From a virus: DNA of 25,181 nt. Where the stretch lies: IMG/VR virus record IMGVR_UViG_3300042889_000570, positions 1-25,181 of that record. One strand, given 5' to 3'. Numbering within the stretch: position 1 is the first letter of the stretch; every line of letters starts with the position of its first letter. A program made the translations under genes and the position numbers. Below the pieces are notes generated by a model. That model was not told where the DNA came from. It made no database searches and saw only the letters and a program-made list of their open reading frames with translations. Below are positions 2,457-25,181 of this stretch, piece by piece.

Positions 2457-3503
2457 TTATATCATGCTCTTTAAGTTGTTTAGCAATCGAGTATCGTTTG
2501 GTGCAAACTCAAGTGCTTGTTTTACTAATTCTATGGCTTCATCTTTTAAGCCAAGATTCCAAGCTGCAATCGACCCTAAATCGTAAGGGCGTTCAGTCCA
2601 TACAGTTGGGTCCATTGTGTAAACCAGTGCCTTGTCACGGATATTTAGTGCAGATTTTGCAGCACTATAACATTCAGTCCAATTACTAGTGCGGTAAGCA
2701 AGAGTAGCAAGCTCAACCCAAGGCTCGCGTGTGCCTGGTGCTTCTGCTACCGCTAACCTGTACATTTTAATCGCTTGTTCCAAATTACCTAATTCGGTAT
2801 ATGACTTACCTAATAGTCGGTAAGCATAACAACGTTCATTTTGCCAAGTAGCTTCGGGCATTGCCAAGTACTTGTTTAAGTAAGTAATCGCTTCTTGCCA
2901 GCGTGAATAAAAAGTTAGTTCACGTGCGTGATAGAAGGCATTACGTGGGCAGTGCGGATCTTCAGCGATAGCCAATTCTAGTAATGGCATATATTGACCA
3001 CGCGACTTGGTGTTGTCTGGCAGATGCGTAACAAGCAACATATCCGTGTGAGCGTATTTTTCGTTAGTACGGTTATCAGGTCTAGGATATTCGTGTACTG
3101 GATGATGCCAGTGGTATCCAGTACGATGATGTATTTTTTCGTAAAAGAAACTAATACCTTGACCCCAGTCAAATTTGTAACGCAATCGGGTGGTTTCTGC
3201 GGTCCACACTCGTTCAATTTCTTTACGCCAACCTGGTTCTAGCACTTCGTCTAAGTCAAGTGAGATGCATACATCAAAATCACCTGGAATTAGGTTTAGT
3301 GCAGTGTCGCGAGCTTTGTCAAATCGCCACGGTTTTACTGAAATATTATATACTTCGGCTCCGTACTTTTTAGCTTCGGCTACTGTGTTATCGGTAGAAC
3401 CTGTGTCTGCAATTAAGATAAGATCAGCATCTATTGCACTTTTACAAAAACGTTCAACAAACTGTTCTTCGTTTTTACTGATAGCGTATACTGCTATTTT
3501 CAT
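2457..3503 (-). CDS. Family 2 glycosyltransferase with C-terminal TPR-like repeats
   Basis: The 348-residue protein has a GT-A-type domain at about 1-180 and helical TPR-like repeats at about 187-345. The catalytic part shows MKIAVYAISKNEEQF, the nucleotide-sugar contact DTGSTD at 33-38, and the metal-binding D-L-D at 83-85 inside SLDLDEVL. A histidine-rich stretch (TGYHWHHPVHEY) lies at about 128-139. The repeat units begin near residues 187, 223, 259 and 308 and end in motifs such as AVAEAPG and ALEFAPND. Such GT2-TPR proteins transfer a sugar to a protein or glycan; substrate cannot be read from sequence. It lies between the tail-fibre array and the lysis cassette. The ribosome binding site is weak, but MKIAVYAISKNE is the expected family start. 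Confidence 0.9.
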   Translation of the reverse strand: MKIAVYAISKNEEQFVERFCKSAIDADLILIADTGSTDNTVAEAKKYGAEVYNISVKPWRFDKARDTALNLIPGDFDVCISLDLDEVLEPGWRKEIERVWTAETTRLRYKFDWGQGISFFYEKIHHRTGYHWHHPVHEYPRPDNRTNEKYAHTDMLLVTHLPDNTKSRGQYMPLLELAIAEDPHCPRNAFYHARELTFYSRWQEAITYLNKYLAMPEATWQNERCYAYRLLGKSYTELGNLEQAIKMYRLAVAEAPGTREPWVELATLAYRTSNWTECYSAAKSALNIRDKALVYTMDPTVWTERPYDLGSIAAWNLGLKDEAIELVKQALEFAPNDTRLLNNLKSMI

Positions 3504-3508
3504 TGTTA

Positions 3509-4009
3509 TTATCTAATGGGGTTATAAGGCCAGCTAATATTTTCAGCTGGTTGGGTTAAATCGCAGTGTTGCGTTAAATCACGCAACTCTTGTTTGTAGT
3601 TTAACAAATCTATAATTTGTTGTTGTGATAGTGTAGTAGTAACGCCACGTAATGTTTGTTCTTGATGACGTTGCACTAACCAATCAGTGTCGTATAAATA
3701 CTGTGCTCGTTGCACTAAACCTGTGATTACTGGAGTATCTTGAGCAGGAAGCATTTGTAGTATATATTCTAAGTCTGTTTCTTGATTTAAAAACCAAGCT
3801 ACTTCAGCACTATCAATAACAGCTTCAAACGTGTTGTCTGCTCGCTGTACGTGATAAATATCTCTGTGAGGTTCTATAGAAAGCAATTTGGTATTTGTAA
3901 AGGGATATTGAACAGTACTAACAAAATCTTGTGCAGAATTCCAAGTATACGAGTAATTACCACATTTAATGTAAAAATTTAAATTATAAAAGTCAAGTGT
4001 AACAATCAC
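3509..4009 (-). CDS. Tail fibre assembly chaperone-like protein, GTG start
   Basis: The 166-residue protein has an unrecognised N-terminal half. Its C-terminal half resembles phage tail assembly chaperones: DTDWLVQRHQEQ at 107-118, LLNYKQELRDLT at 135-146, and WPYNP at 160-164. That spacing (tDW..R, YrqaLRDl, WP.nP) is typical of small proteins encoded just after tail fibre genes that help fibre folding or attachment. The position, last in the adhesin array, agrees. It starts with GTG; AAGGAT lies upstream and overlaps the stop region of the collar-like gene, which supports coupling. Confidence is good for the C-terminal domain and low for what the N-terminal half does. Confidence 0.75.
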   Translation of the reverse strand: MIVTLDFYNLNFYIKCGNYSYTWNSAQDFVSTVQYPFTNTKLLSIEPHRDIYHVQRADNTFEAVIDSAEVAWFLNQETDLEYILQMLPAQDTPVITGLVQRAQYLYDTDWLVQRHQEQTLRGVTTTLSQQQIIDLLNYKQELRDLTQHCDLTQPAENISWPYNPIR

Positions 4010-5165: not shown

Positions 5166-5648
5166 TTATGCGTATTTAGTTTGAGAAGCGTATACGTTCC
5201 AAGTACTAGCTGTAGTTTTTACAATAAACAGCATATAAATATCCGTACTATTAGCATTTCCTAAAGTAAAATTTATTCCACTTTGATATCTAGTAGTTAC
5301 ACCTGTGGTAGCTCCATCAATGCGAATACCAGACATAAAGTAAGGTGTTACACCGTTTGGCACTAATACAGTAATACTTACGCTTTCACCTACTGATAAC
5401 AGTGAGTTTAAAGTTGTGGTTGCATCACCACGAACATTCAAAATAAAATTGTTTGTAGCTGTATTATACAACACAATCGATTGTGTGGCAACATCAAAAT
5501 TTGTTGTGCTTGCTGGCGCAACGGTTTCAAGGGTAACTGGTTCTTTTACTACTTTTAGTGTTTTGTTTGACATAACCTGGCTACCTGTAAGGGTAGCCAA
5601 GCTATTATATAGCGCTGGATCGAGTGTGTTTTGAACAACTAAGGTCAT
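5166..5648 (-). CDS. Small beta-rich virion (tail fibre) protein
   Basis: The 160-residue product starts MTLVVQNTLDPALYNSLATL and contains QVMSNKTLKVVKEPVTLETV, a motif common near the N-terminus of phage fibre proteins. The remainder is threonine- and asparagine-rich and predicted beta-stranded, ending ASTWNVYASQTKYA. There are no membrane or signal segments. AAGGAATTTT precedes the ATG. It has a shortened relative at 8364-8465 that shares the MTLVV start and the KEPVT segment. The likely role is a structural tail component; no enzyme motif is seen. Confidence 0.75.
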   Translation of the reverse strand: MTLVVQNTLDPALYNSLATLTGSQVMSNKTLKVVKEPVTLETVAPASTTNFDVATQSIVLYNTATNNFILNVRGDATTTLNSLLSVGESVSITVLVPNGVTPYFMSGIRIDGATTGVTTRYQSGINFTLGNANSTDIYMLFIVKTTASTWNVYASQTKYA

Positions 5649-5847: not shown

Positions 5848-6969
5848 TTAGTTTATTTTCATAAAAAGTCCCCAAGCACCGCAAGGGAAGTAGTAATATG
5901 TTTCACCATTGATTTCTGTGGTATCGCCTGAAGTTCCTGCTTCTCCAGGACCAAAGTAAACAGGAACAACTCCTGTGATATACTGGGTAGGCCAACCAAT
6001 ACGGTCATTTGCCAGTAACACTGGTTGAATATTGTATTTTGGTAAGCCTGTTGCATTTACTCCTGGACGCACTGCACGAGCTGGTGTTAAGGTTAATCCA
6101 GTACCGGTGGATATGCCGTTACCTTGTACAGCCGATATACCATAACTTTTGCATAAAAAAGTTGCGTTAGTGGTTGGATATCCAGGATTAGGATTACTGG
6201 TATTACAAGGATCGTATACGCCATAATAACTACTGGTATTTGGATCAGTTAAACCAAAACACGCATGCAGCCAACTTCCACCTTGAGCAGTAGTAAAAGG
6301 TTGCGGAGTATATGTTATAGTAGAAGTATTTGATGCTCGCTGAGGAATAGTGGTATCTGCATGGCAGTACTGTACAAAAGGTGCAGTATTATATCTAGCA
6401 TTTAAGTCTGTAGAACTCATTTCCCAGATTGCACTCATTCCACGATCTTGGTCAATAATAGTTATATGACGCGGATTAGCTATTAAATGCACTACTCTGT
6501 TAGCTAAACCTACGCGTAAGCTACAATTTAACTGTTCATTTTCTGTATCACTTGAACTAGCATTATAAAACATAGGCCCCTGATTTGTGGCCGTACCAGT
6601 TCCATTAAAAGCTGATGCACCAGTAAGCTGAATATTTTGATTAACATAGCCAGCAATCTGGTTTATGGTATTTAAAACACAATATTTTGTAGTGCCGTCC
6701 AAACAAGGCGCAGACATTCCATAACGCATCCAAGTTTGTGTAGTAGCTGCATTAAACCCAGCTAACGTGCCATTATAGTCTGCGGTCTCGTTACTACCAA
6801 TATAAGTCCAGCCTGCAGGCGTTGCGTCTATTACAACTGATCCAGTGGCTGCAGTATAAACTTCACACAATGAAATTGAAGGGTTTGCAGAAGTACAGAG
6901 TCGGATAATATCTCTGATACATAATTGTGAGTGTTTGCTGGTATTACCAACTAATAATTTTGCATACAT
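5848..6969 (-). CDS. Unidentified virion structural protein (373 residues)
   Basis: The protein starts MYAKLLVGNTSKHSQLCIRD and ends with YYYFPCGAWGLFMKIN. It contains ANPRHITIIDQDRGMSAIWE in the middle, preceded by VHLI, which resembles a segment seen in phage tail proteins of unknown function. About ten cysteines are scattered, unusual for a virion protein. There are no membrane segments and no signal peptide. GGAG lies upstream of the ATG. Neighbours on both sides are fibre or virion proteins, so a structural role is likely. I do not recognise an enzymatic fold. Confidence 0.75.
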   Translation of the reverse strand: MYAKLLVGNTSKHSQLCIRDIIRLCTSANPSISLCEVYTAATGSVVIDATPAGWTYIGSNETADYNGTLAGFNAATTQTWMRYGMSAPCLDGTTKYCVLNTINQIAGYVNQNIQLTGASAFNGTGTATNQGPMFYNASSSDTENEQLNCSLRVGLANRVVHLIANPRHITIIDQDRGMSAIWEMSSTDLNARYNTAPFVQYCHADTTIPQRASNTSTITYTPQPFTTAQGGSWLHACFGLTDPNTSSYYGVYDPCNTSNPNPGYPTTNATFLCKSYGISAVQGNGISTGTGLTLTPARAVRPGVNATGLPKYNIQPVLLANDRIGWPTQYITGVVPVYFGPGEAGTSGDTTEINGETYYYFPCGAWGLFMKIN

Positions 6970-6972
6970 AAA

Positions 6973-7170
6973 TTATTCTCCAGTAATAATAATAGCACGT
7001 GAATCTGTTACAGGTTTTTCAGCCCAAAAATATATGGTGCCTTGAAAAATATTAAATCCATAACTGTTGTTGGTAGATTCTTGTAGTTCTTGTAGTTCTT
7101 GTACTGTACCACTAAAAGTATATGTGTTTGTATTATTACCAAACATATTTAAAATGTCTTGATTTGTCAT
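6973..7170 (-). CDS. 65-residue small protein in the tail array, unknown
   Basis: The product starts MTNQDILNMFGNNTNTYTF and includes a short helical repeat VQELQELQES, then YGFNIFQGTIYFWAEKP and a beta-like end. AGGAT precedes the ATG. It is separated by two bases from the upstream gene and by three from the downstream gene, so it is embedded in the operon. The N-terminal DILNMFGNN could be a small domain, but no family is recognised. It is probably a virion or assembly protein by context. Confidence 0.7.
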   Translation of the reverse strand: MTNQDILNMFGNNTNTYTFSGTVQELQELQESTNNSYGFNIFQGTIYFWAEKPVTDSRAIIITGE

Positions 7171-7172
7171 TT

Positions 7173-7637
7173 TTATCCTGAATAATATTCGTACTGAATA
7201 GATAATCCTGTACCTTGGTTAAGAGAACCTATTCCTATAACATCTGTAAAAATGCTATTGCCTGCAGGAACATTAATACCAGTAACATTTGTGCTGCTGG
7301 TATTAGTGGGTGTTATAGAATATGTACCTTGCTGAGTGGCGGTACTATAGCTAGTACCTGTTTTTACTGCAATAATAATGTTACTGCCTGTGGGGGCTGT
7401 TGCTGTTGTTAGGGTAATTTTGGTAACTACAGCTTGTGTTGGAAATACGATTCCTCGACCAGTAGCGCCTAAGTTATATGCTATTCTAACCACAGCATCT
7501 CGCGATGAGTTTATGTTTGCGTATTGAGCTTTTGCACCAGCAATAACTTTGGTAGGATCAGCTACTACATCACTGCTGTCAGTGTAAATTTTTCCAAAAG
7601 TATTATCAAGCAGTATACTTCGAGTTCTTCTTGTCAT
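7173..7637 (-). CDS. Small beta-rich virion protein (154 residues)
   Basis: The product begins MTRRTRSILLDNTFGKIYTD. It becomes threonine-, serine- and isoleucine-rich with alternating hydrophobic residues (VVTKITLTTATAPTGSNIII), and ends GTGLSIQYEYYSG. This is the composition of a beta-sandwich virion protein. GAGG lies a few bases before the ATG. No catalytic or membrane features are present. It lies between a collagen-like fibre gene and the 65-residue gene and is most likely a tail-fibre-associated structural protein. Confidence 0.7.
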   Translation of the reverse strand: MTRRTRSILLDNTFGKIYTDSSDVVADPTKVIAGAKAQYANINSSRDAVVRIAYNLGATGRGIVFPTQAVVTKITLTTATAPTGSNIIIAVKTGTSYSTATQQGTYSITPTNTSSTNVTGINVPAGNSIFTDVIGIGSLNQGTGLSIQYEYYSG

Positions 7638-7638
7638 A

Positions 7639-8361
7639 TTATACCTCTACCGTCATTAAAACACACTTCCAAGATAGTGTTTTGCCTGCAGCTCCAACAA
7701 CATATACATTAATGCTACTATTGGTATTATCTGCTCTTATATCAACATTAAAATTAGCGTCTGTTCTTGCAACAATTACTTCATAAATATAGCCTATATC
7801 CGAAGTAGTTGTTCCGTTGTTTACTGCTAAACCTTTTAAGTAAAAAGACGCATAATCTCCTGTAGCATTAGTTCTATTACAAACAAACTCAGCAGTATAG
7901 TAAACAGTTGAGTTTGCGGGTACTGATATACGCGAATTTGCAACGCCGCTAACAAATATTTCTGTTTCTGTTGCGTTAGTTGTTGTGCCAGTAAAACTAT
8001 ATTGATTGGAATAAATGCTTGATCCACCACCACCTCCACCACTTCCAGCAGGTCCTGTTGGTCCTGTTAAGCCTGAGGCTCCTGTTGGTCCTGTTGGGCC
8101 TGCTACAGTTGATGCAGCACCTGTTGGACCTGTAGCCCCGTCTACACCTATAGTGCCATTTGTGCCTTGAGGACCTGTTGGCCCAGTAGGGCCTGCACCA
8201 CCAGCACCGCCACTTTGACTTACCCAAGCTGTACCGTTTGATACAAGTGTGTTACCTGTGGGCCCTGGACCTGTAACTCCTGTACCGCCTTTGCTTGGCC
8301 CTAGAACGCCTTGTGAAGTTAGTCCTTGAGCAAGTTTTGCTAGATATGTTGCTATACTCAT
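7639..8361 (-). CDS. Collagen-like tail fibre protein (240 residues)
   Basis: The protein has three parts. Residues 1-28 ([20 protein letters not shown], then GPSKGGTG) form an N-terminal cassette shared with three other genes of this window. Residues about 54-110 are Gly-X-Y collagen-like repeats ([26 protein letters not shown]), followed by a run of seven glycines. Residues about 118-240 are a beta-rich C-terminal domain ([19 protein letters not shown] ... [12 protein letters not shown]), probably a trimeric tip. AGGAAG precedes the ATG. The architecture of anchor, triple helix and tip fits a short trimeric fibre. Confidence 0.85.
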
Positions 8362-8507: not shown

Positions 8508-8744
8508 TTAAGCCTGTATATTAGCTAGTTGAGCTTCTAATGCATTTTTGTATAATTCAGCCTTACGTTGTTCTTTTTGATTATCAGTTAGCATCTTTTG
8601 CATATGCGTTTTGTAATCTTGCATAGTAGAATCGTTTTCTATGCTGTTAATAATATGAGAAATACTATCAATTTCAATTTGATACATATCAATCTCGTTA
8701 GTACGCGCTAAAATAGCGTTTGTTAAAAATTCAATCTTGTCCAT
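8508..8744 (-). CDS. Small coiled-coil protein, probable tail fibre accessory
   Basis: The 78-residue product starts MDKIEFLTNAILARTNEIDM and is helical and charged throughout (QKMLTDNQKEQRKAELYKNA), with heptad-like spacing suggesting a coiled coil. I prefer this start because GGAA lies five bases upstream. An in-frame ATG at 8759, overlapping the upstream stop as TAATG, would add MIGII but has no Shine-Dalgarno. The start MDKIEFLxxxIxxRxxEID is a pattern I associate with small proteins encoded among tail fibre genes of aquatic phages. Function is unknown; an assembly or chaperone role is a guess. Confidence 0.72.
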   Translation of the reverse strand: MDKIEFLTNAILARTNEIDMYQIEIDSISHIINSIENDSTMQDYKTHMQKMLTDNQKEQRKAELYKNALEAQLANIQA

Positions 8745-8758
8745 AATTATTCCAATCA

Positions 8759-9910
8759 TTATAAGGTAACTGCTGCACCAACAATTCGTGCAAAGGGTAC
8801 TCCTGCACCAGGATAGCTAATAGAAGTACCAAACCCTGTTTCATCGTTCCAAAGAACACCGTAAGAACTGCCTTCGGTACTAATAGTAATCATTATTATA
8901 TCGTTACTTGCAGATAGGGTTGCTTCCTGTATACTTGTAACTGTTGGTATACTTGGCGGATTAGCATATTTTGTACCAAATCCAGTACCACTATCCCATT
9001 TATATGCTTGTATAAATGGAGAGAGAGTGCCAACAAAAAAGATAACTGTACCTGTGGTATTAAAAAATGCTTGTGTCATTGGCATATCTACAAACCCCGT
9101 TGGGGCCGCATATTGAGTACCGGCCCCATTAGCATTAGTCCAAGAAAATGTCTTGTGTCTAGCAGTGCCGTTACTGGTTGCACATACAAAAGCGTCCATA
9201 GCAGGAGTCCAGTCAAACCCAACTCCAGTAGCGCCTGCTACTGCTGCCGGAACTGCATAGTTTGCTCCGTTACTGGCTCCTGTATACGGGTCTATTCTTA
9301 ATATATTTATACTGGGGGTGCCGGAAGACCCCGCAGCCCACGCATATCCGTCTCTAGAAAATTTTGATCTAACAGCACCGCCTATACTCGTAACACTATT
9401 AATTGTGCCAAAAGTACTTGTAGCTAAATTAAAACTTACGCTGTATAAAACGTTATTAGTACTATTAAAGAAAAACAAATAATTACCTACTGGAGGGCAT
9501 CTTAAACTGTTATTAGCTAAACTTAAAGTATTGCTGGTAGCAGCCCATTTAGTTCCAAACCCAGTAGAAATACTAAAAGGCCAAGCATATAGACGCCCTG
9601 CAGTATTACCTTGTGCAAATACAACACTACCGCTAGGATGTGGTGCTACACCGCTATCTGCACCGCTTGCTGGCGTTCCACTAATAGGAGTATATTCTGG
9701 TCCAAAATTACTACCTGTCCATGGAAATGCTCGTACACTACCTCCGTTATTTCCGTGACCTGAAAACATTACTGTATTAAACTGCTTTGGCCAAGAATAG
9801 TTTGTTTGATAAGGGGTGTATTGAGACTGTGTCCAAGACCCTTTAGTATTAAAAAATGTAACTCTTGTTGCAGAAGCGGTAATGTATCCGCCTTGTCTTG
9901 TAAGTGGCAT
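8759..9910 (-). CDS. Probable seven-bladed beta-propeller virion protein
   Basis: The 383-residue protein contains seven copies of a pattern like (I/L)-x-A-(Y/F)-x-W-x(3-5)-G-F-G-T-x-Y, starting near residues 60, 107, 155, 201, 252, 300 and 349. Examples are VRAFPWTGSNFGPEY, LYAWPFSISTGFGTKW, IQAYKWDSGTGFGTKY and YGVLWNDETGFGTSI. The spacing of 46-51 residues is the size of a four-stranded propeller blade, so seven blades are expected. No catalytic motif is seen. AGGAT precedes the ATG. Surrounded by fibre genes, it is probably a virion protein that binds a surface ligand; the fold and role are inferred from the repeat. Confidence 0.8.
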   Translation of the reverse strand: MPLTRQGGYITASATRVTFFNTKGSWTQSQYTPYQTNYSWPKQFNTVMFSGHGNNGGSVRAFPWTGSNFGPEYTPISGTPASGADSGVAPHPSGSVVFAQGNTAGRLYAWPFSISTGFGTKWAATSNTLSLANNSLRCPPVGNYLFFFNSTNNVLYSVSFNLATSTFGTINSVTSIGGAVRSKFSRDGYAWAAGSSGTPSINILRIDPYTGASNGANYAVPAAVAGATGVGFDWTPAMDAFVCATSNGTARHKTFSWTNANGAGTQYAAPTGFVDMPMTQAFFNTTGTVIFFVGTLSPFIQAYKWDSGTGFGTKYANPPSIPTVTSIQEATLSASNDIIMITISTEGSSYGVLWNDETGFGTSISYPGAGVPFARIVGAAVTL

Positions 9911-9918
9911 AAATATCC

Positions 9919-10293
9919 TTAACTTATTTCTTCCCAGCTAGCAATTACTATTAAATAATTTGCCGCACCAGCAGTTACACCAATAGATTGATTTTCTAAT
10001 AAATATATAGAGTTTGATTTATCTATAACTAATAAGGATACTCCTGCGGGTACTCCTAGTGCATTACCGATTGGGTAAGCAGTGCCCGCCATTGCAGCCT
10101 GACTATACAAATTAATTGTAATATTAGCTGCAACTGTAGCATTAATGTTTGATACATTAATTAAGTTGATTTTAAAAATTTTGCCACTTCCTGCAGGATT
10201 ACTAATTAGTTGTGTTGCTGAAGTGGTTGTTAAACTTACGTAAGCATTGTTTCCGTATAAGTTTGTTGCAGAAGCTATATTTGGATTAGCCAT
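9919..10293 (-). CDS. Small virion protein, paralogue of the gene at 21871-22242
   Basis: The 124-residue product starts MANPNIASATNLYGNNAYVS and ends LIVIASWEEIS. It has the beta-rich composition of a compact virion domain, with SLTTTSATQLISNPAGSGK and INLINVSN as recognisable segments. The gene at 21871-22242 encodes a protein with the same layout: MA.PN start, SLTTTSAT, SGK.x.N, LxVSN, VIDKS.., YLxENxS.G.TAG. The two are clearly duplicates. Both lie directly downstream of a collagen-like gene, suggesting a partner or tip/clamp for such fibres. AGGAAC precedes the ATG. Confidence 0.78.
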   Translation of the reverse strand: MANPNIASATNLYGNNAYVSLTTTSATQLISNPAGSGKIFKINLINVSNINATVAANITINLYSQAAMAGTAYPIGNALGVPAGVSLLVIDKSNSIYLLENQSIGVTAGAANYLIVIASWEEIS

Positions 10294-10302
10294 GTATGTT
10301 CC

Positions 10303-10674
10303 TTAAATATTTAAAATATAGTATTTTAAGCCTCCGCCACCACCGCCCGCTGCAGCAGGACCTGTTGGCCCAGTTGTTCCTGCGGGCCCTGTAGGACCTG
10401 TTGCACCATCAACACCTATTGTGCCGTTAGTACCTTGTGGCCCCGTGGGCCCCGTGGGCCCTGTTGCACCATCAACACCTATTGTGCCGTTAGTACCTTG
10501 TGGCCCCGTGGGCCCTGCTAGTCCGGCTGTACTAGTCCAGCTAGTGCCATTAGAAACAAGTAAGTTACCACTAGCACCTGGACTTGTAACACCTGTGCCG
10601 CCTTTGGAAGGTGGTACTACGCCATCGGTGCTTAACACCGATGCGAGTTTTGATAGATAACGTGCTATACCCAT
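10303..10674 (-). CDS. Short collagen-like fibre protein (123 residues)
   Basis: The shared N-terminal cassette ([28 protein letters not shown]) is followed by a linker [12 protein letters not shown] and about 55 residues of Gly-X-Y repeats. It ends abruptly in [14 protein letters not shown], without a C-terminal globular domain. A 63-base unit (21 residues, [20 protein letters not shown] plus T) is present twice in tandem, with 56 bases identical. AGGAT precedes the ATG. Compared with the related gene at 7639-8361 it lacks the tip domain, so it is either a minimal fibre, a shaft used with the next-encoded protein, or a truncated copy. Confidence 0.8.
10397..10515. repeat. Tandem 63-base duplication in collagen-like gene
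   Basis: Bases 10397-10452 are repeated exactly at 10460-10515, a period of 63 bases that preserves the Gly-X-Y frame. Perfect identity over 56 bases, with both copies coding, suggests a recent slippage or unequal recombination event. Confidence 0.9.
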
Positions 10675-10683
10675 GTAGTATCC

Positions 10684-13600
10684 TTATTTTGTTAGTAGTG
10701 CCTCGGTGGGCGGTGTGAAGTTGGCTGTGTAACGTGCAAAACGGCTAATACGTAGATCGTCAATATATCCAGAAGTATATCCACTAGCACCACCTCTAGC
10801 TCCAACATATAGTGGTTTAGTGCTATCGCCCAATGTTCCTGAAAATGTTAATGTTGATGCCGCGGTAACGCCATTTAAATAAAGTGAACATGTAGTCCCT
10901 GAACGTACAGCCGCTACGTGATACCAAGTATTTGCTACAATAGTAGGAGAACTGATATAAGAATTAGCACTACTAGGATAGTATTGTATGGTGTTACTGG
11001 ATGTCAAAATAATCCAATCCGACGCAACGTTAGATACATAATTACCTATTATATCTGCATTATTATTTATTGGGCTAAAGTATATCCAGAATTCAACAGT
11101 ATAATCTCCTGTATACTGAAAATTAGGACTAGCAGGTATTTTTAAAGTATCACCAGTACCATCAAAATACATAGAACTTGAACCGTATTTTTTGACCGCA
11201 GTAGAAACTTTAGCATCTCCAACAGTTTCCAGCACCACTTTACCTGACTTGTCTGCGATTGCGGCTTTGTCAGCGCTTAACAAAAACGTGGTGTTTTGGA
11301 CAGCGGTTAGTGGCGCTACAGGAAGTGCAAAGTTTGCTGAATATGGGGATGTGCCTTTTGTAATACGCACATCACTTACATATCCGTTCATTGCACTGTT
11401 TGTTTCTCCTGGGCCTGTCATACCAATTTGAAAAGGTTGGGTACACGTAAGTGCTCCAGCACTACCATATGTATACGTTTGTACTCCGTTTACAAAAACC
11501 CTAAAAACAGTTCCCGTTCGTGTATATGCAATATGATACCATTGATTTGCAGCTAATGTTCCAGCAGTAGGCCCGTTAACTACGTTCCAGCTTGCATTGT
11601 CACTACTAGCATATAAAGTAATCGTGCCACTTGCTAACCATAATAAAAATGGTACGTATGAGGCAGCGCCAGAATTACTGTTTCTATGCGAGAATATTAA
11701 TTGTGTACCTGATATATTATTAAAGTAAAACCAACCTTCAACTCCAAAATCATTTGTCCCAAAACTTGCATGTGCCGGATTAGTAGGTACAGATAAATAA
11801 TCACCAGTTCCATCAAAATACGCTGAGCTACCGTACACTTGAGCAGAGTACTCAGGCGTTGTGGTTGTGTAGCCAAATGGATTTTGTTGTCGAGGTTTTG
11901 TATCTCCATATATAGTTAGCGCAAGTTGATTTGTTGAATTATCTTTGATGGTTGCATCTTGGCAAGCTAAAAAGTAAGTGTTTGCAACGGCTGTTAGTGG
12001 CTGAGTAGATGGAGTAAAATTAGCAGTGTAAAGTGCTGTGCCTTTGACAATGCGAACGTTGGAAATATAACCATTAAAGTTTGTACCTCCTGAATCAATA
12101 AATGCTTTGCCTATTGAAATAGTTGGAGTAGCAGTCCAGGTTGGTGTAGTAGTACTAGTTGCTTCCGCAACACCGTTAAGGTATAGCGTATTTGTGCTAC
12201 CTGAGCGCACTAGTGCAACATGGTTCCATGTTCCTGCAGACACTGTAGACGTACTAATAAATACTGTTGCAGTATCTGAGACTTTAAAGTATATTTTTTG
12301 ATTACCTTCAAGGTATATAGTTACACCAGTAGAGTTACTGCTTGTGGTACCGCCCATACCGATTAAACCAGCTTGACCAGAAAGTCCAGTTACATTAAAC
12401 CAACACTCAACTGTAAAGTTGCCAGTTAGTTGATTGGCAGCAAGAGCTGGTGAAGTTATGTAGTCACCAGTACCGTCAAAATATACACTGTGTGTGAGTG
12501 GTGTTTGCAGTGTAGGTGCAAATGGTGAAAAACGTTCAATACGTACATCGCCATTACGAGTTATTGCTGAAGCTTTTACACTATTGTCAACAAAACTAGG
12601 TGATTGGCAAGTTAATATCTGTGTACCAGCAACAGTTGTTAATGGTTGTGTTGGTGGTGTAAATGCTGCTGTATACAAGCATCCACCAGTACCATTTACT
12701 ACACGAAGATTACTAATATAACCGTTAAAAGCACTGTACAATCCTCCGTCTGCTATTAATCCGCCAATTTGTGTAACAAGTTCATAGGCTGTTGATTGAT
12801 TTAATGGACTAGAATATGTTACTGATGTAGCGTCTTGCACACCGTTTATAAAGCAACGAATTACATTACTTGAATTTCTGGTTAGGGCAATGTGTGTCCA
12901 CTTATTTAATGGCACAGTGCCGGTACTGGTATATGTAACTGGATAACTATTCCAAACACCTGTAGATGCAGCAAGCTCTAGCTTTCCATCACCTTTTATA
13001 TAAAAACGATAACCACCATTTTGTCCAGTTTGCCAATTGTTGTCGTTGATGATAGCATTATCAGTATTTAAAACTGTTGGAAAAACCCATGCTTCAATTG
13101 TAAACTCACCACTAGCAATTTCTGCACGACCAGTAGGAGTTAAATAGTCTCCTGAACCATCAAAGTAGCTTGACCAGTTGGCTCCGTAGGGACTAAAAGA
13201 TCCTTGTGTAGCGTTGCCGTTACGTGTAATATTAAGTGCCGATGTGGAATTATCTAAAAAAGTTTGATTGTTGTGTGGCTGATTGGTTTGGCAGGTTAAA
13301 AGTGCCGTGTTTGTTATGGCTGTTAAGGGTGCTGCGGGTGGTGTAAATGCAGTAGTGTAAACGGCTGTACCTTTGACTAATCTGTAATCTGAAATATAAC
13401 CTGTAAAATTTTGACCGTTGCCGTTTCCACCTATAAACAATGTACCACTAGTTTTCATTGTGTCTGCAGTTGTTCCTGTACCTGCACTAACTCCATTTAT
13501 CCATAAGTTAAAAGTAGAACCACTGCGTGTTACTGCCATATGATTCCAAGCATAAATTGGTGCAGTGCCATTGATAGTAAAATAATTGCCGCCTCCATTT

Positions 13601-15483
13601 CCTACTTCTAATGTCCATGATGTTCCACTATGGTACAGCATAATGCTGTAATTACCAGATCCCCACAATGAATCAATTCCGTTAGTGTTTATAGTAGGAT
13701 AACACCAGGCTTCCATTGTAAAATTACCAGTACCTAAACTAATAGCTGAAGTAAAAGGCACTGATAAAGTATCTCCAGTACCATCAAAATATGTTGATCC
13801 GTATGTGGCATAGCTGGAATTTGGCACAAATGGAACAAAACTGCTGACTTTTGTATCACCATTACGTGTAATTGTAAAAGGATTCGGTGAGTTATCAAGC
13901 AGTCGATTGGATTGGCAAGTAAGTAAAACTGTACCTGTTACGGCTGTTAATGGTACAGTAGGTGGTGTAAAGTCTGAAGTATATACTGCAGTGCTTTTTA
14001 CAAACCGTAAATTACTAATGTATCCACTTGTCCATTGAGAATATCCGTTAATGCCACCAACCCATACATCACCAGTTGCTGTTAAGTTGTATCCTGTAGT
14101 AGCTCCTGCTAATGGTTGTGATATACCATTAAAATAAATTTTTAATACGCCTGCATTTATAACGCATGCAATATGTGTCCATGTATTTAATTTTACAGTA
14201 GTAGTGGTATATCCTGCATTGCTAAACCCAATTACACTATATGCATCATAAACATCCATACCAGTAGTAGCAGTAACACTGTTGTTTATAATTCTTGCAG
14301 TAGCTGGTGATGCGGTTGGATAATACCAGAATTCAACAGTGCCAGTTGTTCCAAATGCAGCAGCAGCTCCAGTAGGAATTGATATATAATCACCACTACC
14401 ATCAAAGTAGTTTGAATAATATCCAGGCGTGTGCGGATTAAAGTTGTTGGGCTTTGTGTCGCCTACTACTGTTACAGCAAAATTGTTGGCAGATGCATCA
14501 GCAACAAAAGGTGCAACAGCAGTTTCTGAATTTAACAATAAGGTTGTATAACGAAAATTAGCATCTGCAGCAATTGAAATTGTCCAGTTAATGGTAATTT
14601 GTGCAGTTTCTGAAGTAGCGGTTGCAGTTGCAGTTAATGTAGTTGTTGAATTACCAGCAGTAGTAGGTGTGCCAGTAATTGTAGCACCACTAATTGCTAA
14701 ACCTGTGGGCAGACTATTTGCTGAATAACTAATTGAGCTTCCAGCTGCTGACGTGGCTAACAAACTAGAAGTATAAGGTGTATTAGGAGTACCTGATAAT
14801 GCTGCATTATTAGCAGGTGACGACCACGACACAACATCAGGGTTAACTGTTAAACTAAACTGACGATCCGTGTCTTGATTTTCTGCATCAGTTGCACGAA
14901 CTGTAAATGTATATGTGGTAGATCCTGAGACTAATGGACTTGTGCCACTAATAGTACCATTGGGGTTTAGTGTAGCTCCACTAGGCAGTGTGCCTGAAAA
15001 TACACTATAAGTAACAGCTGAATTACTAGTTGCTGACAGGGTGCTTGAAATAGCACCAGTTTCATAAACAGTGCCCAAACTACCTGCAGCTGTGGTCCAG
15101 GCAGGAACTCCTGAATACTGTATACCAGGAACTGCAATTGCAGTTGATCCGTCTAAGTTAACCACATAAAGAATGTAGCTGCCTGCGGCTAATTGAGGTG
15201 CAGTAAATGTAATTTGTGTGCTAGAAACAACTGTGACCACACCAACAGGTGTGGTGTTGATTAAAACCTTTGCACCGCTAGCAAAGTTTGTGCCAGTTAA
15301 GGTAATTAAGCCTCCGCCAGCAACGTCAGCAGCAGTATCGTCACCGCCATAACCAATTTGTGAAATTGTAGGGGACGTAGTTCCACCACCCGTGGTGTTA
15401 CCCGTCCCGCCTTTTGCGGCCGACAATACGCCATCAGCACTTAAGCCGTCCGAGAAATTTACTAGTCTTTGTGCTATGCTCAT
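10684..15483 (-). CDS. Giant multidomain adhesin with TIG/PIG-like and six LamG-like domains
   Basis: The 1599-residue protein starts with the shared cassette MSIAQRLVNFSDGLSADGVL SAAKGGTG. It then shows an IPT/TIG-like domain at about 38-120 (LITLTGTNFASGAKVLINTT) and two putative-Ig-type domains at about 127-214 and 218-305 (LPSGATLNPNGTISG, LPTGLAISGATITG). Six LamG/concanavalin A-like domains follow, each opening with a YFDG(T/S)GDxL-like strand near residues 360, 565, 773, 1001, 1221 and 1439. Each is closed by GYISxLRxVKGTAxYTxxFTPP. The units are diverged, not recent copies. LamG folds bind carbohydrate or protein ligands, so this is a likely receptor-binding fibre. AAGGA precedes the ATG. 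No enzymatic motif is seen. Confidence 0.88.
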   Translation of the reverse strand: MSIAQRLVNFSDGLSADGVLSAAKGGTGNTTGGGTTSPTISQIGYGGDDTAADVAGGGLITLTGTNFASGAKVLINTTPVGVVTVVSSTQITFTAPQLAAGSYILYVVNLDGSTAIAVPGIQYSGVPAWTTAAGSLGTVYETGAISSTLSATSNSAVTYSVFSGTLPSGATLNPNGTISGTSPLVSGSTTYTFTVRATDAENQDTDRQFSLTVNPDVVSWSSPANNAALSGTPNTPYTSSLLATSAAGSSISYSANSLPTGLAISGATITGTPTTAGNSTTTLTATATATSETAQITINWTISIAADANFRYTTLLLNSETAVAPFVADASANNFAVTVVGDTKPNNFNPHTPGYYSNYFDGSGDYISIPTGAAAAFGTTGTVEFWYYPTASPATARIINNSVTATTGMDVYDAYSVIGFSNAGYTTTTVKLNTWTHIACVINAGVLKIYFNGISQPLAGATTGYNLTATGDVWVGGINGYSQWTSGYISNLRFVKSTAVYTSDFTPPTVPLTAVTGTVLLTCQSNRLLDNSPNPFTITRNGDTKVSSFVPFVPNSSYATYGSTYFDGTGDTLSVPFTSAISLGTGNFTMEAWCYPTINTNGIDSLWGSGNYSIMLYHSGTSWTLEVGNGGGNYFTINGTAPIYAWNHMAVTRSGSTFNLWINGVSAGTGTTADTMKTSGTLFIGGNGNGQNFTGYISDYRLVKGTAVYTTAFTPPAAPLTAITNTALLTCQTNQPHNNQTFLDNSTSALNITRNGNATQGSFSPYGANWSSYFDGSGDYLTPTGRAEIASGEFTIEAWVFPTVLNTDNAIINDNNWQTGQNGGYRFYIKGDGKLELAASTGVWNSYPVTYTSTGTVPLNKWTHIALTRNSSNVIRCFINGVQDATSVTYSSPLNQSTAYELVTQIGGLIADGGLYSAFNGYISNLRVVNGTGGCLYTAAFTPPTQPLTTVAGTQILTCQSPSFVDNSVKASAITRNGDVRIERFSPFAPTLQTPLTHSVYFDGTGDYITSPALAANQLTGNFTVECWFNVTGLSGQAGLIGMGGTTSSNSTGVTIYLEGNQKIYFKVSDTATVFISTSTVSAGTWNHVALVRSGSTNTLYLNGVAEATSTTTPTWTATPTISIGKAFIDSGGTNFNGYISNVRIVKGTALYTANFTPSTQPLTAVANTYFLACQDATIKDNSTNQLALTIYGDTKPRQQNPFGYTTTTPEYSAQVYGSSAYFDGTGDYLSVPTNPAHASFGTNDFGVEGWFYFNNISGTQLIFSHRNSNSGAASYVPFLLWLASGTITLYASSDNASWNVVNGPTAGTLAANQWYHIAYTRTGTVFRVFVNGVQTYTYGSAGALTCTQPFQIGMTGPGETNSAMNGYVSDVRITKGTSPYSANFALPVAPLTAVQNTTFLLSADKAAIADKSGKVVLETVGDAKVSTAVKKYGSSSMYFDGTGDTLKIPASPNFQYTGDYTVEFWIYFSPINNNADIIGNYVSNVASDWIILTSSNTIQYYPSSANSYISSPTIVANTWYHVAAVRSGTTCSLYLNGVTAASTLTFSGTLGDSTKPLYVGARGGASGYTSGYIDDLRISRFARYTANFTPPTEALLTK

Positions 15484-20968: not shown

Positions 20969-21871
20969 TTATACATCAGCTGTATTAGTTGCTGGGAAAG
21001 CTCTATCAGGTCCCCAAATTATTCGTACAGCACCGCCAGCGCCTACTCGCCCGCCATCGTCTAGGTACTGAACCGCTCCGGCTCCGCCACCAAATAGTGC
21101 ATCATAAGTACCTGGAGTATTAGTGCTGCCACCAGAGCCAGCACCGCCAGTACCACCATTAATTCCGCCTACTCCACTTGGGCCTTGGCCCCATATACCT
21201 ACTCCACCACCGTAGCCGCCTGGATTATTGTATTGACCGCCACCGCCTCCACCGCCACCACCAGTGCCACTTGGCGACTGAGTTGCATAATCAGTTACGC
21301 TTGAACCACCGTTGCCGCTATATCCGCCAGCACCGCCTCCGCCTGGTCTATTTTGAGCATCTCCTAAGGGAGGTACTCCACCATTGCCGCCGGTACCAAC
21401 ATTTGTATCTGTAGAAGGTGTGCCGCCTGTTTGCAAACTTGCGCCACCGGTGGCCAATACTGTTGCTTTGGAAGCAAACCAACTAGATCCCCCTAAATAA
21501 GGAACTGTTACTGGTCCGCCTGCACCTACTGTAACAGTATATGTAGTGCCTGGTATAACTGCAATATTATTTACATATCGTAAGTTACCGCCATTACCAG
21601 CACGCATATTCAAGGCGGAATTGTTACTGTTTCCAGTTCTTACACCGCCACCGCCACCCACACAAACCACGCTAACTAACGTGACTCCTGCTGGAGCAAT
21701 CCAAGTGTAAGTTCCCGGTGTTGTAAATGCTGCTTGTCCACCACGATTTACTACTGCAGATAATTTTTTTGATGCTATAGTATTAGACCTAATAATATTC
21801 CAAATACCTCCAGAAGCAAAAAGTGTTTTCTTAGTTGCACTTAAAACGCCACCAAGGTATCTTTTAGTCAT
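20969..21871 (-). CDS. Glycine-rich virion protein of the GAVRIIWG type (300 residues)
   Basis: The product starts MTKRYLGGVLSATKKTLFAS GGIW, a short N-terminus different from the other tips. It continues with AFTTPGTYTWIAPAGVTLVS VVCVGGGGG, a beta segment that opens a glycine-rich region reaching almost to the end. It closes with GAGGAVRIIWGPDRAFPATNT, a C-terminal signature I associate with many aquatic phage fibre proteins. GAGGAT lies nine bases before the ATG, which overlaps the upstream stop as TAATG. It is the shortest of the five glycine-rich proteins. Likely a tail fibre tip or a related virion adhesin. Confidence 0.8.
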   Translation of the reverse strand: MTKRYLGGVLSATKKTLFASGGIWNIIRSNTIASKKLSAVVNRGGQAAFTTPGTYTWIAPAGVTLVSVVCVGGGGGVRTGNSNNSALNMRAGNGGNLRYVNNIAVIPGTTYTVTVGAGGPVTVPYLGGSSWFASKATVLATGGASLQTGGTPSTDTNVGTGGNGGVPPLGDAQNRPGGGGAGGYSGNGGSSVTDYATQSPSGTGGGGGGGGGQYNNPGGYGGGVGIWGQGPSGVGGINGGTGGAGSGGSTNTPGTYDALFGGGAGAVQYLDDGGRVGAGGAVRIIWGPDRAFPATNTADV

Positions 21872-22242
21872 TAGCTTATATCCTCATAACTTACAGTTAC
21901 TACAAGTGCATTAGCTGTGCCTGCAGTAGCACCTAAACTAGAATTTTCTTCTAAATAATATTGACTAGACTTGTCAATTACATTTATTGTTGAATTTGCA
22001 GTTATTGACATAGTGCCCACAATTGCAAAACTAGTGCCTGCAATAGCTGCTGCATTATTATAAACTACTGTTACTGTTACTGCACTAGAAGTAGTATTAC
22101 TTACGTTTAATGTATTAACTTTTAAACATTTGCCGCTACTAGCGGCATTACTTAGCACACTAGTGGCACTAGTAGTTGTTAGACTAGTGCCACTTGTTTT
22201 GCCAGTTATTGTTGTTGCTCCAATTAAATTTGGTGCTGCCAT
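21871..22242 (-). CDS. Small virion protein, paralogue of the gene at 9919-10293
   Basis: The 123-residue product starts MAAPNLIGATTITGKTSGTS and ends ALVVTVSYEDIS. It matches the 9919 gene along its length. GGAGG lies five bases before this ATG, which is the deciding evidence. A longer reading from a TTG at 22252-22254 would add four residues but would place the Shine-Dalgarno inside the gene. The start is one base after the stop of the giant collagen-like gene. It is probably a fibre-associated virion protein. Confidence 0.8.
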   Translation of the reverse strand: MAAPNLIGATTITGKTSGTSLTTTSATSVLSNAASSGKCLKVNTLNVSNTTSSAVTVTVVYNNAAAIAGTSFAIVGTMSITANSTINVIDKSSQYYLEENSSLGATAGTANALVVTVSYEDIS

Positions 22243-22243
22243 G

Positions 22244-25181
22244 TTATCCTCCAAATATCAGCGAATAGCCGAGAGTTTTTGCTGCAGTAGTAGATTCGCC
22301 TGCAGCTCCTGTGGCTCCTGTGGCTCCTGTGGCTCCTGTATCTCCTGTGGCTCCTGTAGGACCTGCTGGGCCTTGTGCTCCAGTTAATCCTGTTGCACCA
22401 ACTGCAATAACCCAACCAGTACCAGTGTATATAAAAAACTCTCCCGTAGTAGAGTCCATCCATAGCTGTCCTGAAATAGGGGTAGTTGGAGCGGTATCAC
22501 TGATGTATGTAGGTGATGCAGGTCCTATAGGACCTGTGGGCCCTGCTGTACCAGGGGCACCGTCGCCTAACATTTCACGAACTACTATATCTTGAGCAGC
22601 TCCTGGAGCGCTTGTAAACGTTAAAGTTGTACCTGTTAAAGTATAGTCACTACCAGGTTTTAGTAAAACTCCGCTAACAGTAACTAATATGCTATCAACT
22701 GTGTATCCACTATTAATAGTAAAATTTGTTGTAGCACCATTACCAATAAAACTTTGTGTTGTTACAGTAAAAGGTAACCCGAGTCCTCCAGGACCTGTTG
22801 GTCCTGTAACACCTGCTGCACCTGCTGCACCTGCTGCACCTTGCCCTAACATTTGTTGTACAACTATTTCATTACCTGTTTTAGGGGCAGTGGTAAACGT
22901 TAGTGTTGTACCTGACAGCGTATAGTCAGATGTTGCCTTTAATACAATGCCGTTAACTATAACTAAAATATTATTTAAGGTATAGCCGCTATCAATTGTA
23001 AAATTTACAGTAGTATTGTCACCAGTAAAGTTTTTGGTAACCATTGAGAAGGGTTCACCAGTTCCACCACCACCACCAGTGCCAGCTGGACCTGTTGGTC
23101 CAACTAAACCTTGTGGCCCTGTTGGACCGGGCACTGTTGAAGCAGCACCTGTAGCACCTGTTGGCCCGGTTGCTCCATCTACACCTATAGTGCCATTTGT
23201 GCCTTGTGAACCCGTGGGTCCCTGAACACCTTGTGTACCTTGTACACCTTGAATACCTTGAACGCCTTGAACGCCTGTTGGACCTACAACACCTTGGATA
23301 CCTTGAGCACCTGTAGGACCTACAGCACCTGTAGGGCCTGTAGCACCGTCTACACCTATGGTTCCGCTAGTACCTTGAGGACCTTGTGAGCCTGTTGGAC
23401 CCTGTGAACCTGTTGGACCTGCAACGCCTTGTATACCTTGAGCACCTGTTGGTCCTGTAGCACCGTCAATACCTATGGTTCCGTTAGTACCTTGAGGACC
23501 TGTTGGACCTGCTATAGTTGATGCAGCACCTGTAGGGCCTGTAACGCCTTGAATACCTTGAGCACCTGCTGGACCTACTATTTGTCCAACATCTAAGTAG
23601 CTGCTACCTGTCCAAGTATATAAGTTACCGTCTGCTGTAACAATGTAAGCATCACCAGTACTAGGGGTTGGACTAACGGGTAATGCACCTACTGTAGCAA
23701 CTTCGCCTTTGATATTAACTGAGGTACCAGGAGCCCCTGTAGGGCCTGTGTTACCTTGTGCACCTGTAGGACCTGTGTTACCTTGAGTACCTGTTGGTCC
23801 TGCAGGGCCGTCTCCAAGCATTTCACGAACTACTATTTCACTGCCACTTTCTGCAGCAGTTGTAAGTGTTAGTGTTGTTCCACTTAGTGTATAGTCTGTG
23901 GTTGGTTTTAGTAAGACACCATTAATAACTACTAATAAACTATCTGTTGTATAACCACTATTAATAGTATAAGCAGTGGTTGTGCCATCAGCAATAAAAG
24001 TTTCTGTTACAACTGTAAAAGGTAATCCGATTCCACCAGCACCTGTAGGTCCTTGTAATCCTATAGAGCCTGTAGGTCCTGTAGAACCAGTAGGTCCCGC
24101 AATACCTTGTGTTCCTTGAATACCTTGAGCACCTGTTGGTCCAGTATCGCCTTGAATACCTTGAGTACCCGTAGGTCCTTGAACACCTTGAGTACCTGTG
24201 AGTCCTGTTTCGCCTTGAGTACCTGTGGGACCTACAATACCCTGTGTACCTTGTGTACCTTGAATGCCTTGTACACCTTGTGAGCCTGTGGGACCTACTT
24301 CACCTTGGATACCCTGAGTACCTTGTGTACCTTGTGCCCCTGTGGGACCTAATAATCCTTGTGGACCTGTTGGTCCATCGCCAGTTAATTCGCGTACTAC
24401 AATTTCATCACCACTATAAGGTGTAACACCAAATGTTAGTGTAGTTCCAGTTAGTGTATAATCTGTTGTGGGTTTTAGTAAAGATCCGTTGATTGTTACT
24501 AGTATACTATCTAGTGTATATCCAGTATTAACAGTAAATGTTGATGCACTACCATCGCCAGTAAATGACTGAGTAGTCATTATAAAAGGAAAGCCAGTAC
24601 CAGCGGGACCTGTTGCTCCTGTAGGCCCTGTACCACCTAAAATACCGTCAGAACCTGCTGGGCCTGTAGGACCTGCTATAGTTGATGCAGCACCTGTGGG
24701 TCCTTGAATACCTTGTAAACCTTGAACGCCTTGAGCACCTGTTGGGCCTACAATACCTTGTGGCCCTTGTTGACCTGTGGGTCCTTGAATACCTTGAGAA
24801 CCAGTTGGGCCAGCTACTGTACTATCAGCACCTGTGGGCCCTGTTAGACCTTGTGTACCTGTAGCACCTGTTGGTCCCTGATCACCTTGAACGCCTTGTA
24901 TACCTTGTGTACCTTGAGCACCTGTTGGACCTGCAACACCTTGAATACCTTGTGCTCCAGTAGGACCTGTAGCCCCGTCAACACCAATAACACCGTTAGT
25001 ACCCTGCGCACCTGTAGGACCTGTTATACCTTGAGCGCCTGTTGGACCTGTGATACCCTGTACGCCTTGCGCACCTGTGGGACCTGTAACACCGTCAACA
25101 CCGATAACACCATCTGCGCCTTGAGCACCTGTAGGGCCTTGAATACCTTGTATACCTTGAATACCTTGTATACCCTGAATA
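22244..25181 (-). CDS. Giant collagen-like tail fibre, N-terminus beyond the window
   Basis: The frame is open from the right edge, so at least 978 residues are present and the true start is outside. An internal ATG at 24578-24580 is not the start, because the Gly-X-Y sequence continues in frame upstream of it. Long collagen-like stretches ([26 protein letters not shown]) alternate with four copies of a beta domain at about 24370-24596, 23805-24034, 22840-23056 and 22555-22780. Each copy carries a [22 protein letters not shown] core, DYTLxGTTLTF and [12 protein letters not shown] short domain near 23580-23720 ([20 protein letters not shown]) and another near 22440-22510 also interrupt the repeats. 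It ends [13 protein letters not shown]. Likely a long trimeric tail fibre shaft with side domains. Confidence 0.88.
22248..22252 (-). promoter_or_regulatory. Ribosome binding site for the gene at 21871-22242
   Basis: GGAGG on the minus strand, five bases upstream of the ATG at 22240-22242, overlaps the last codons of the giant fibre gene. It fixes the start at MAAPNL. Confidence 0.7.
25141..25181. repeat. Tandem 18-base repeat at the right edge
   Basis: An 18-base unit beginning GAATACC recurs at 25141, 25159 (one mismatch) and 25177 (cut by the edge). On the minus strand it codes for GIQGIQ repeats. The low variation contrasts with the degenerate nine-base periodicity of the rest of the gene, so it may be a region of recent slippage continuing beyond the window. 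Confidence 0.75.

Follow-up and report, generated by a model that had tools for sequence, protein, structure and literature searches.

A predicted seven-bladed beta-propeller with a helical-hairpin partner gene as a probable tail-fibre-associated adhesin of uncultivated phages

The window analysed here, a stretch of 25,181 nucleotides spanning positions 1 to 25,181 of the IMG/VR virus record IMGVR_UViG_3300042889_000570, carries minus-strand genes of collagen-like, glycine-rich, LamG and T7-fibre type, then tail-tip, chaperone-like, glycosyltransferase, spanin and endolysin genes, the spanins being named from sequence and position only. Inside this tail-fibre cassette lies a gene for a 383-residue protein (8759–9910, minus strand, ATG start), which its repeats, a blade profile and an AlphaFold2 model mark as a beta-propeller. 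Directly 3′ of it is a 78-residue partner gene (8508–8744), and directly upstream a small 124-residue protein (9919–10293) that holds the same position in the syntenic locus L172. Further context, likewise on the minus strand, consists of a collagen-like tail-fibre-type gene (10303–10674), a LamG-repeat adhesin (10684–15483), a glycine-rich adhesin (Gly_rich_2, 20969–21871) with a similar N-terminal GG adapter, and a gene combining collagen repeats with a T7 tail-fibre N-terminal domain (PF03906, 22244–25180). The small protein at 9919–10293 is a paralogue of that at 21871–22254 (46% identity), each directly upstream of a GG-adapter adhesin, which suggests a duplicated small-protein/adhesin cassette. 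The tail/lysis region also contains a family 2 glycosyltransferase plus TPR protein (2457–3503), 92% identical in L172.

The neighbours of relatives of the propeller match tail-fibre and tail-fibre-assembly PHROGs. A collagen-like gene directly upstream is not a universal neighbour, being present in 8 of 127 relatives under a strict pattern. At L089, the propeller gene sits a few genes past an apparent capsid gene, in what its sequences indicate to be a virion module.

Seven cores of the W..G.GFGT.Y type occur at residues 68, 117, 165, 214, 260, 311 and 360 of the propeller, separated by 49, 48, 49, 46, 51 and 49 residues. An ungapped self-match of the protein scored 62 at lag 193, 55 at lag 145 and 52 at lag 48, all above the 99th percentile (49) of 200 shuffles, and 48 at lag 97, above the 95th percentile (46). 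Because the cores recur every 46–51 residues and the self-match exceeds shuffles at lags of about 48 and its multiples, the repeats are real and lie where the cores place them. A blade profile built from other phage proteins, with the window protein (P0001) left out, matched it in seven stretches (E 7.5e-18). The preliminary description, made from the DNA alone, had noted seven such repeats at this spacing and the lack of the classical WD40 GH...WD pattern, and both observations hold: that pattern is absent, and a Pfam search up to E 10 returned no match, including to WD40 (PF00400) and Lactonase (PF10282). PHROG and PDB sequence searches with the propeller also gave no match. Among 53 aligned proteins of the family, however, 16 match Pfam WD40 and four match Pfam Lactonase. 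Since relatives match WD40, PD40 and Lactonase models, the GFGTKY repeat is, as judged by profile comparison, a divergent member of this superfamily. Blades differ strongly from one another at synonymous sites (pS 0.59), and recent blade amplification is not supported.

The AlphaFold2 model of the propeller (pTM 0.80, mean pLDDT 79.5) was computed from an alignment of 53 family sequences, almost exclusively seven-bladed relatives. Residues 1–42 are disordered, and residues 43–377 form seven four-stranded blades. Over about residues 43–383 the model superposes on solved seven-bladed rings with Z of 26.9–29.1 across 284–327 residues (Foldseek, VIA-align), the matches including the designed seven-bladed WRAP-T 7bid, the archaeal YVTN propeller 1l0q and lactonases, of which the 6-phosphogluconolactonase 6nau reaches Z 29.0 over 322 residues; 961 chains reach Z ≥ 8. 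The closed seven-bladed ring proposed earlier is thus borne out as a predicted fold, and the model yielded neither a confident non-propeller structure nor another blade count.

Together, model and core positions map blade 1 (strands b, c and d) to residues 41–76 (9683–9790), blade 2 to 77–125 (9536–9682), blade 3 to 126–173 (9392–9535), blade 4 to 174–222 (9245–9391), blade 5 to 223–268 (9107–9244), blade 6 to 269–319 (8954–9106) and blade 7 to 320–368 (8807–8953), all on the minus strand. The C-terminal strand (residues 369–383, 8762–8806, minus strand) is seen in the family alignment and is expected to complete blade 1 as a velcro closure, with pLDDT below 50 at residues 378–383. In a first MAFFT alignment residues 1–44 fell on blade 1 and one blade had no counterpart, giving a count of eight; this was rejected because the first spacing would be short (42), residues 1–44 align with the adapter that precedes seven blades elsewhere, and the model leaves them disordered.

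This N-terminal adapter (about residues 1–44, 9779–9910, minus strand) carries a GGxIxx...WP motif common to other phage adhesins. It resembles the leader of the propellers in L107 and L141 and that of L172, and similar leaders are found in an RCC1-like protein (L067, from position 3950 onwards, plus strand) and in the glycine-rich adhesin of the window. When the leader of the window propeller was compared with each of the others, no more than 12 of 2000 shuffles scored as high. The stretch is short, and a common origin of these leaders is therefore likely rather than proven; a tblastn search with the 43-residue adapter by itself gave no phage match. Such a leader may serve as a docking piece that can move between different scaffolds.

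Searched directly in IMG/VR, the whole 383-residue propeller found no relative, and relatives were instead reached from the MW202701 protein, from an inner fragment and from profiles. The MW202701 protein, a 714-residue relative whose annotation in the single phage record found is WD40 repeat protein, has blades matching PD40 and WD40, and through it 381 relatives were recovered from IMG/VR; a profile search raised this to at least 569, and 84,980 prokaryote genomes held the family at 11 loci. Counts of d-strands in 159 distinct ORFs, taken from the best 80 loci per search and so biased towards close matches, gave seven blades in 82, 14 in 47 and 21 in four, the remaining counts being fewer each and coming partly from truncated or divergent sequences. 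In the 14- and 21-blade relatives a unit boundary is visible after every seventh blade. From these counts, complete members of the family are proteins of 7, 14 or 21 blades. The ORFs of L026, L023–L025, L038 and L043 are about 1010–1017 residues long and comprise 21 blades in three seven-blade units. Contigs L107, L110, L124, L141 and L096 each carry two seven-blade propeller genes close by as separate ORFs. Two further contigs carry, near a GFGTKY propeller gene, ORFs with a different propeller-type repeat, FKPDGTKMYV / QYTLSTAWDVSTA (L049, 4519–6462; L066, 3436–5070).

The partner gene (minus strand), read from an internal ATG start as used by its relatives, encodes an R..E..YQI.ID motif and is predicted to form a two-helix hairpin (pLDDT 97.9). 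The motifs R..E..YQINIDN and EQxKA are shared by its relatives. Where enough sequence was available, a partner lay immediately downstream of 115 of 148 distinct propellers and upstream of one, and 178 of 182 partner matches adjoin a propeller. Searches with the partner only, which gave overlapping sets, found an adjacent propeller at 26 of 28 IMG/VR loci and for 76 of 78 ORFs, and in the exceptions a propeller lay within about 2.5 kb; the 28 loci come from a search confirmed with the partner of the window, and each has a propeller gene nearby. MW202701 also carries a partner gene. No PHROG matched any of 42 partners, and their Pfam matches were weak, restricted to single members and unconvincing.

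Of the genes compared with L172, the propeller is the most divergent. Endolysin and glycosyltransferase are 92% identical between the window and L172, whereas the propeller (29%) and partner (38%) show the two lowest full-length identities. Host-recognition genes usually diverge locally in this way, whether by rapid change or by being replaced. Between the partner and a 160-residue gene (5166–5648), the window also has four genes (5848–8361), one of them collagen-like, that are absent from L172, as if adhesin genes had been inserted or lost as a block.

Variability is also uneven within the blade. Across 1236 distinct blades, drawn from relatives rather than from the window protein, entropy peaks at positions 8, 10, 26 and 27, which correspond to the d-a and b-c loops. 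Conservation falls on structural residues (W, GFG, Y and P), and the GFG at the c-d turn is almost invariant. At the four variable positions pN is about equal to pS, which can also mean relaxed constraint, and pN/pS for the whole blade is 0.42. In established propeller geometry, the d-a and b-c loops make up the top face, the usual ligand-binding face. The loop variability would fit ligand binding, without proving selection.

The gene neighbourhood, the shared adhesin-type N-terminus and the fast divergence strongly suggest that the propeller is a virion (tail) protein. From the computed repeats, fold, blade number, pairing, neighbourhood and divergence we infer virion location, ligand binding and a role for the partner, and we propose that the propeller is a tail-fibre-associated adhesin with a dedicated helical-hairpin partner (probability about two in three). 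The short flexible adapter would dock the closed ring onto the fibre or tail, the top-face loops would contact a host surface molecule, and the hairpin could be either a chaperone for folding or assembly or a piece that serves in docking. More tentatively, and at slightly less than even odds, propeller and hairpin could constitute a dedicated two-gene host-recognition module in hundreds of uncultivated phages, diversifying both by its top-face loops and by whole seven-blade units (7, 14 or 21 blades), with the hairpin needed for folding or docking.

A structural part that holds or seals the tail and binds no host is the comparison suggested by the seven-bladed propellers of T7 gp12 (PMC6702177) and the SU10 nozzle (PMC9509320), for which such a role has been solved. 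Those propellers, however, are domains of larger nozzle proteins, and the platform and tip domains are absent from the window protein. Moreover, an identity of 29%, where other genes of the window/L172 pair are about 90% identical, is lower than is usual for structural tail genes, and both blade number (7, 14 or 21) and gene number (two per contig in L107, L110 and L124) vary among relatives, leaving a purely structural role unlikely. WD40-type propellers are commonly intracellular scaffolds, and a protein that is absent from the virion and works inside the infected cell or at its surface, perhaps as a scaffold for interactions or a factor in superinfection, would be in keeping with this; given a position within the tail-fibre cassette, the adhesin-type N-terminus, and no signal peptide or host-takeover neighbourhood noticed by inspection, we regard it as slightly less probable still.

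The low probability we assign to an enzyme, lactonase-like or glycan-degrading and located on the tail or in the cell, is the smallest of all, even though 6-phosphogluconolactonases are the best structural matches and four relatives match Pfam Lactonase. Likeness among seven-bladed rings is general, as the 961 chains indicate, identity to lactonases is only 10–14%, and no conserved catalytic-type residue set is evident, conservation falling on the structural residues of the blade. An adhesin remains our preferred reading of the propeller.

If correct, the adhesin reading would provide a recognisable scaffold for many uncultivated phages, a marker motif (YQINIDN) to locate the family and, in blade counts that are multiples of seven, a natural system for repeat-protein growth by whole units. 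Its significance is limited by the existing WD40/YVTN-like annotation of members and by virion propellers already known. The preliminary description had held that a propeller among tail adhesins would be a binding scaffold different from the LamG and glycine-rich ones; the seven-bladed fold stands, but the implied novelty is weakened, as five- and seven-bladed phage receptor-binding and nozzle propellers have been published (PMC4901313, PMC6702177, PMC9509320) and relatives already bear WD40/YVTN-like names. The fold itself is not new, because seven-bladed virion propellers are known from T7 gp12, the SU10 nozzle and PhiKZ gp131C. We found no description of the propeller-partner pairing or of a 7n blade series in the literature searched, whose incomplete coverage makes this weak evidence of novelty.

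Among virion propellers, as far as the description in PMC4901313 goes, PhiKZ gp131C (PDB 4GBF) is a seven-bladed propeller at the baseplate periphery and a proposed receptor-binding domain; likened here by description, it shares the blade number of the window propeller but forms the C-terminal domain in a larger protein of a myophage. Gp45 of Staphylococcus phage phi11 is a receptor-binding protein whose beta-propeller has a candidate sugar cavity, but this propeller has five blades and is joined to stem and tower domains within a trimer (PMC4901313). Neither protein is among the 50 structural matches listed for our model, which has no bearing on their similarity. P2 of PRD1 is a five-bladed virion propeller (PMC4901313), and the propellers of T7 gp12 (PMC6702177) and the SU10 nozzle (PMC9509320) occur in short-tailed phage virions, with seven blades as in the window but in a structural nozzle. 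Outside phages, Nostoc WRAP folds 14 near-identical blades into two seven-bladed rings (PMC9218822); it resembles the 14-blade phage relatives and differs in being part of a cyanobacterial STAND-type protein outside a phage tail cassette. The repetitive propeller 2ymu and WRAP-T designs are PDB matches of P0002. Closest of all are proteins of the same repeat family: the phage protein A0A6J5SDD4 in BFVD, described as 'WD40/YVTN repeat-like', shares both the repeat family and the fold, at a Foldseek E of 4.5e-19, and the 'wD40 repeat protein' of MW202701 is 31.7% identical over 83% of the query by tblastn but has 14 blades in two seven-blade units, whereas the window propeller combines seven strongly diverged blades with a GG..WP adapter.
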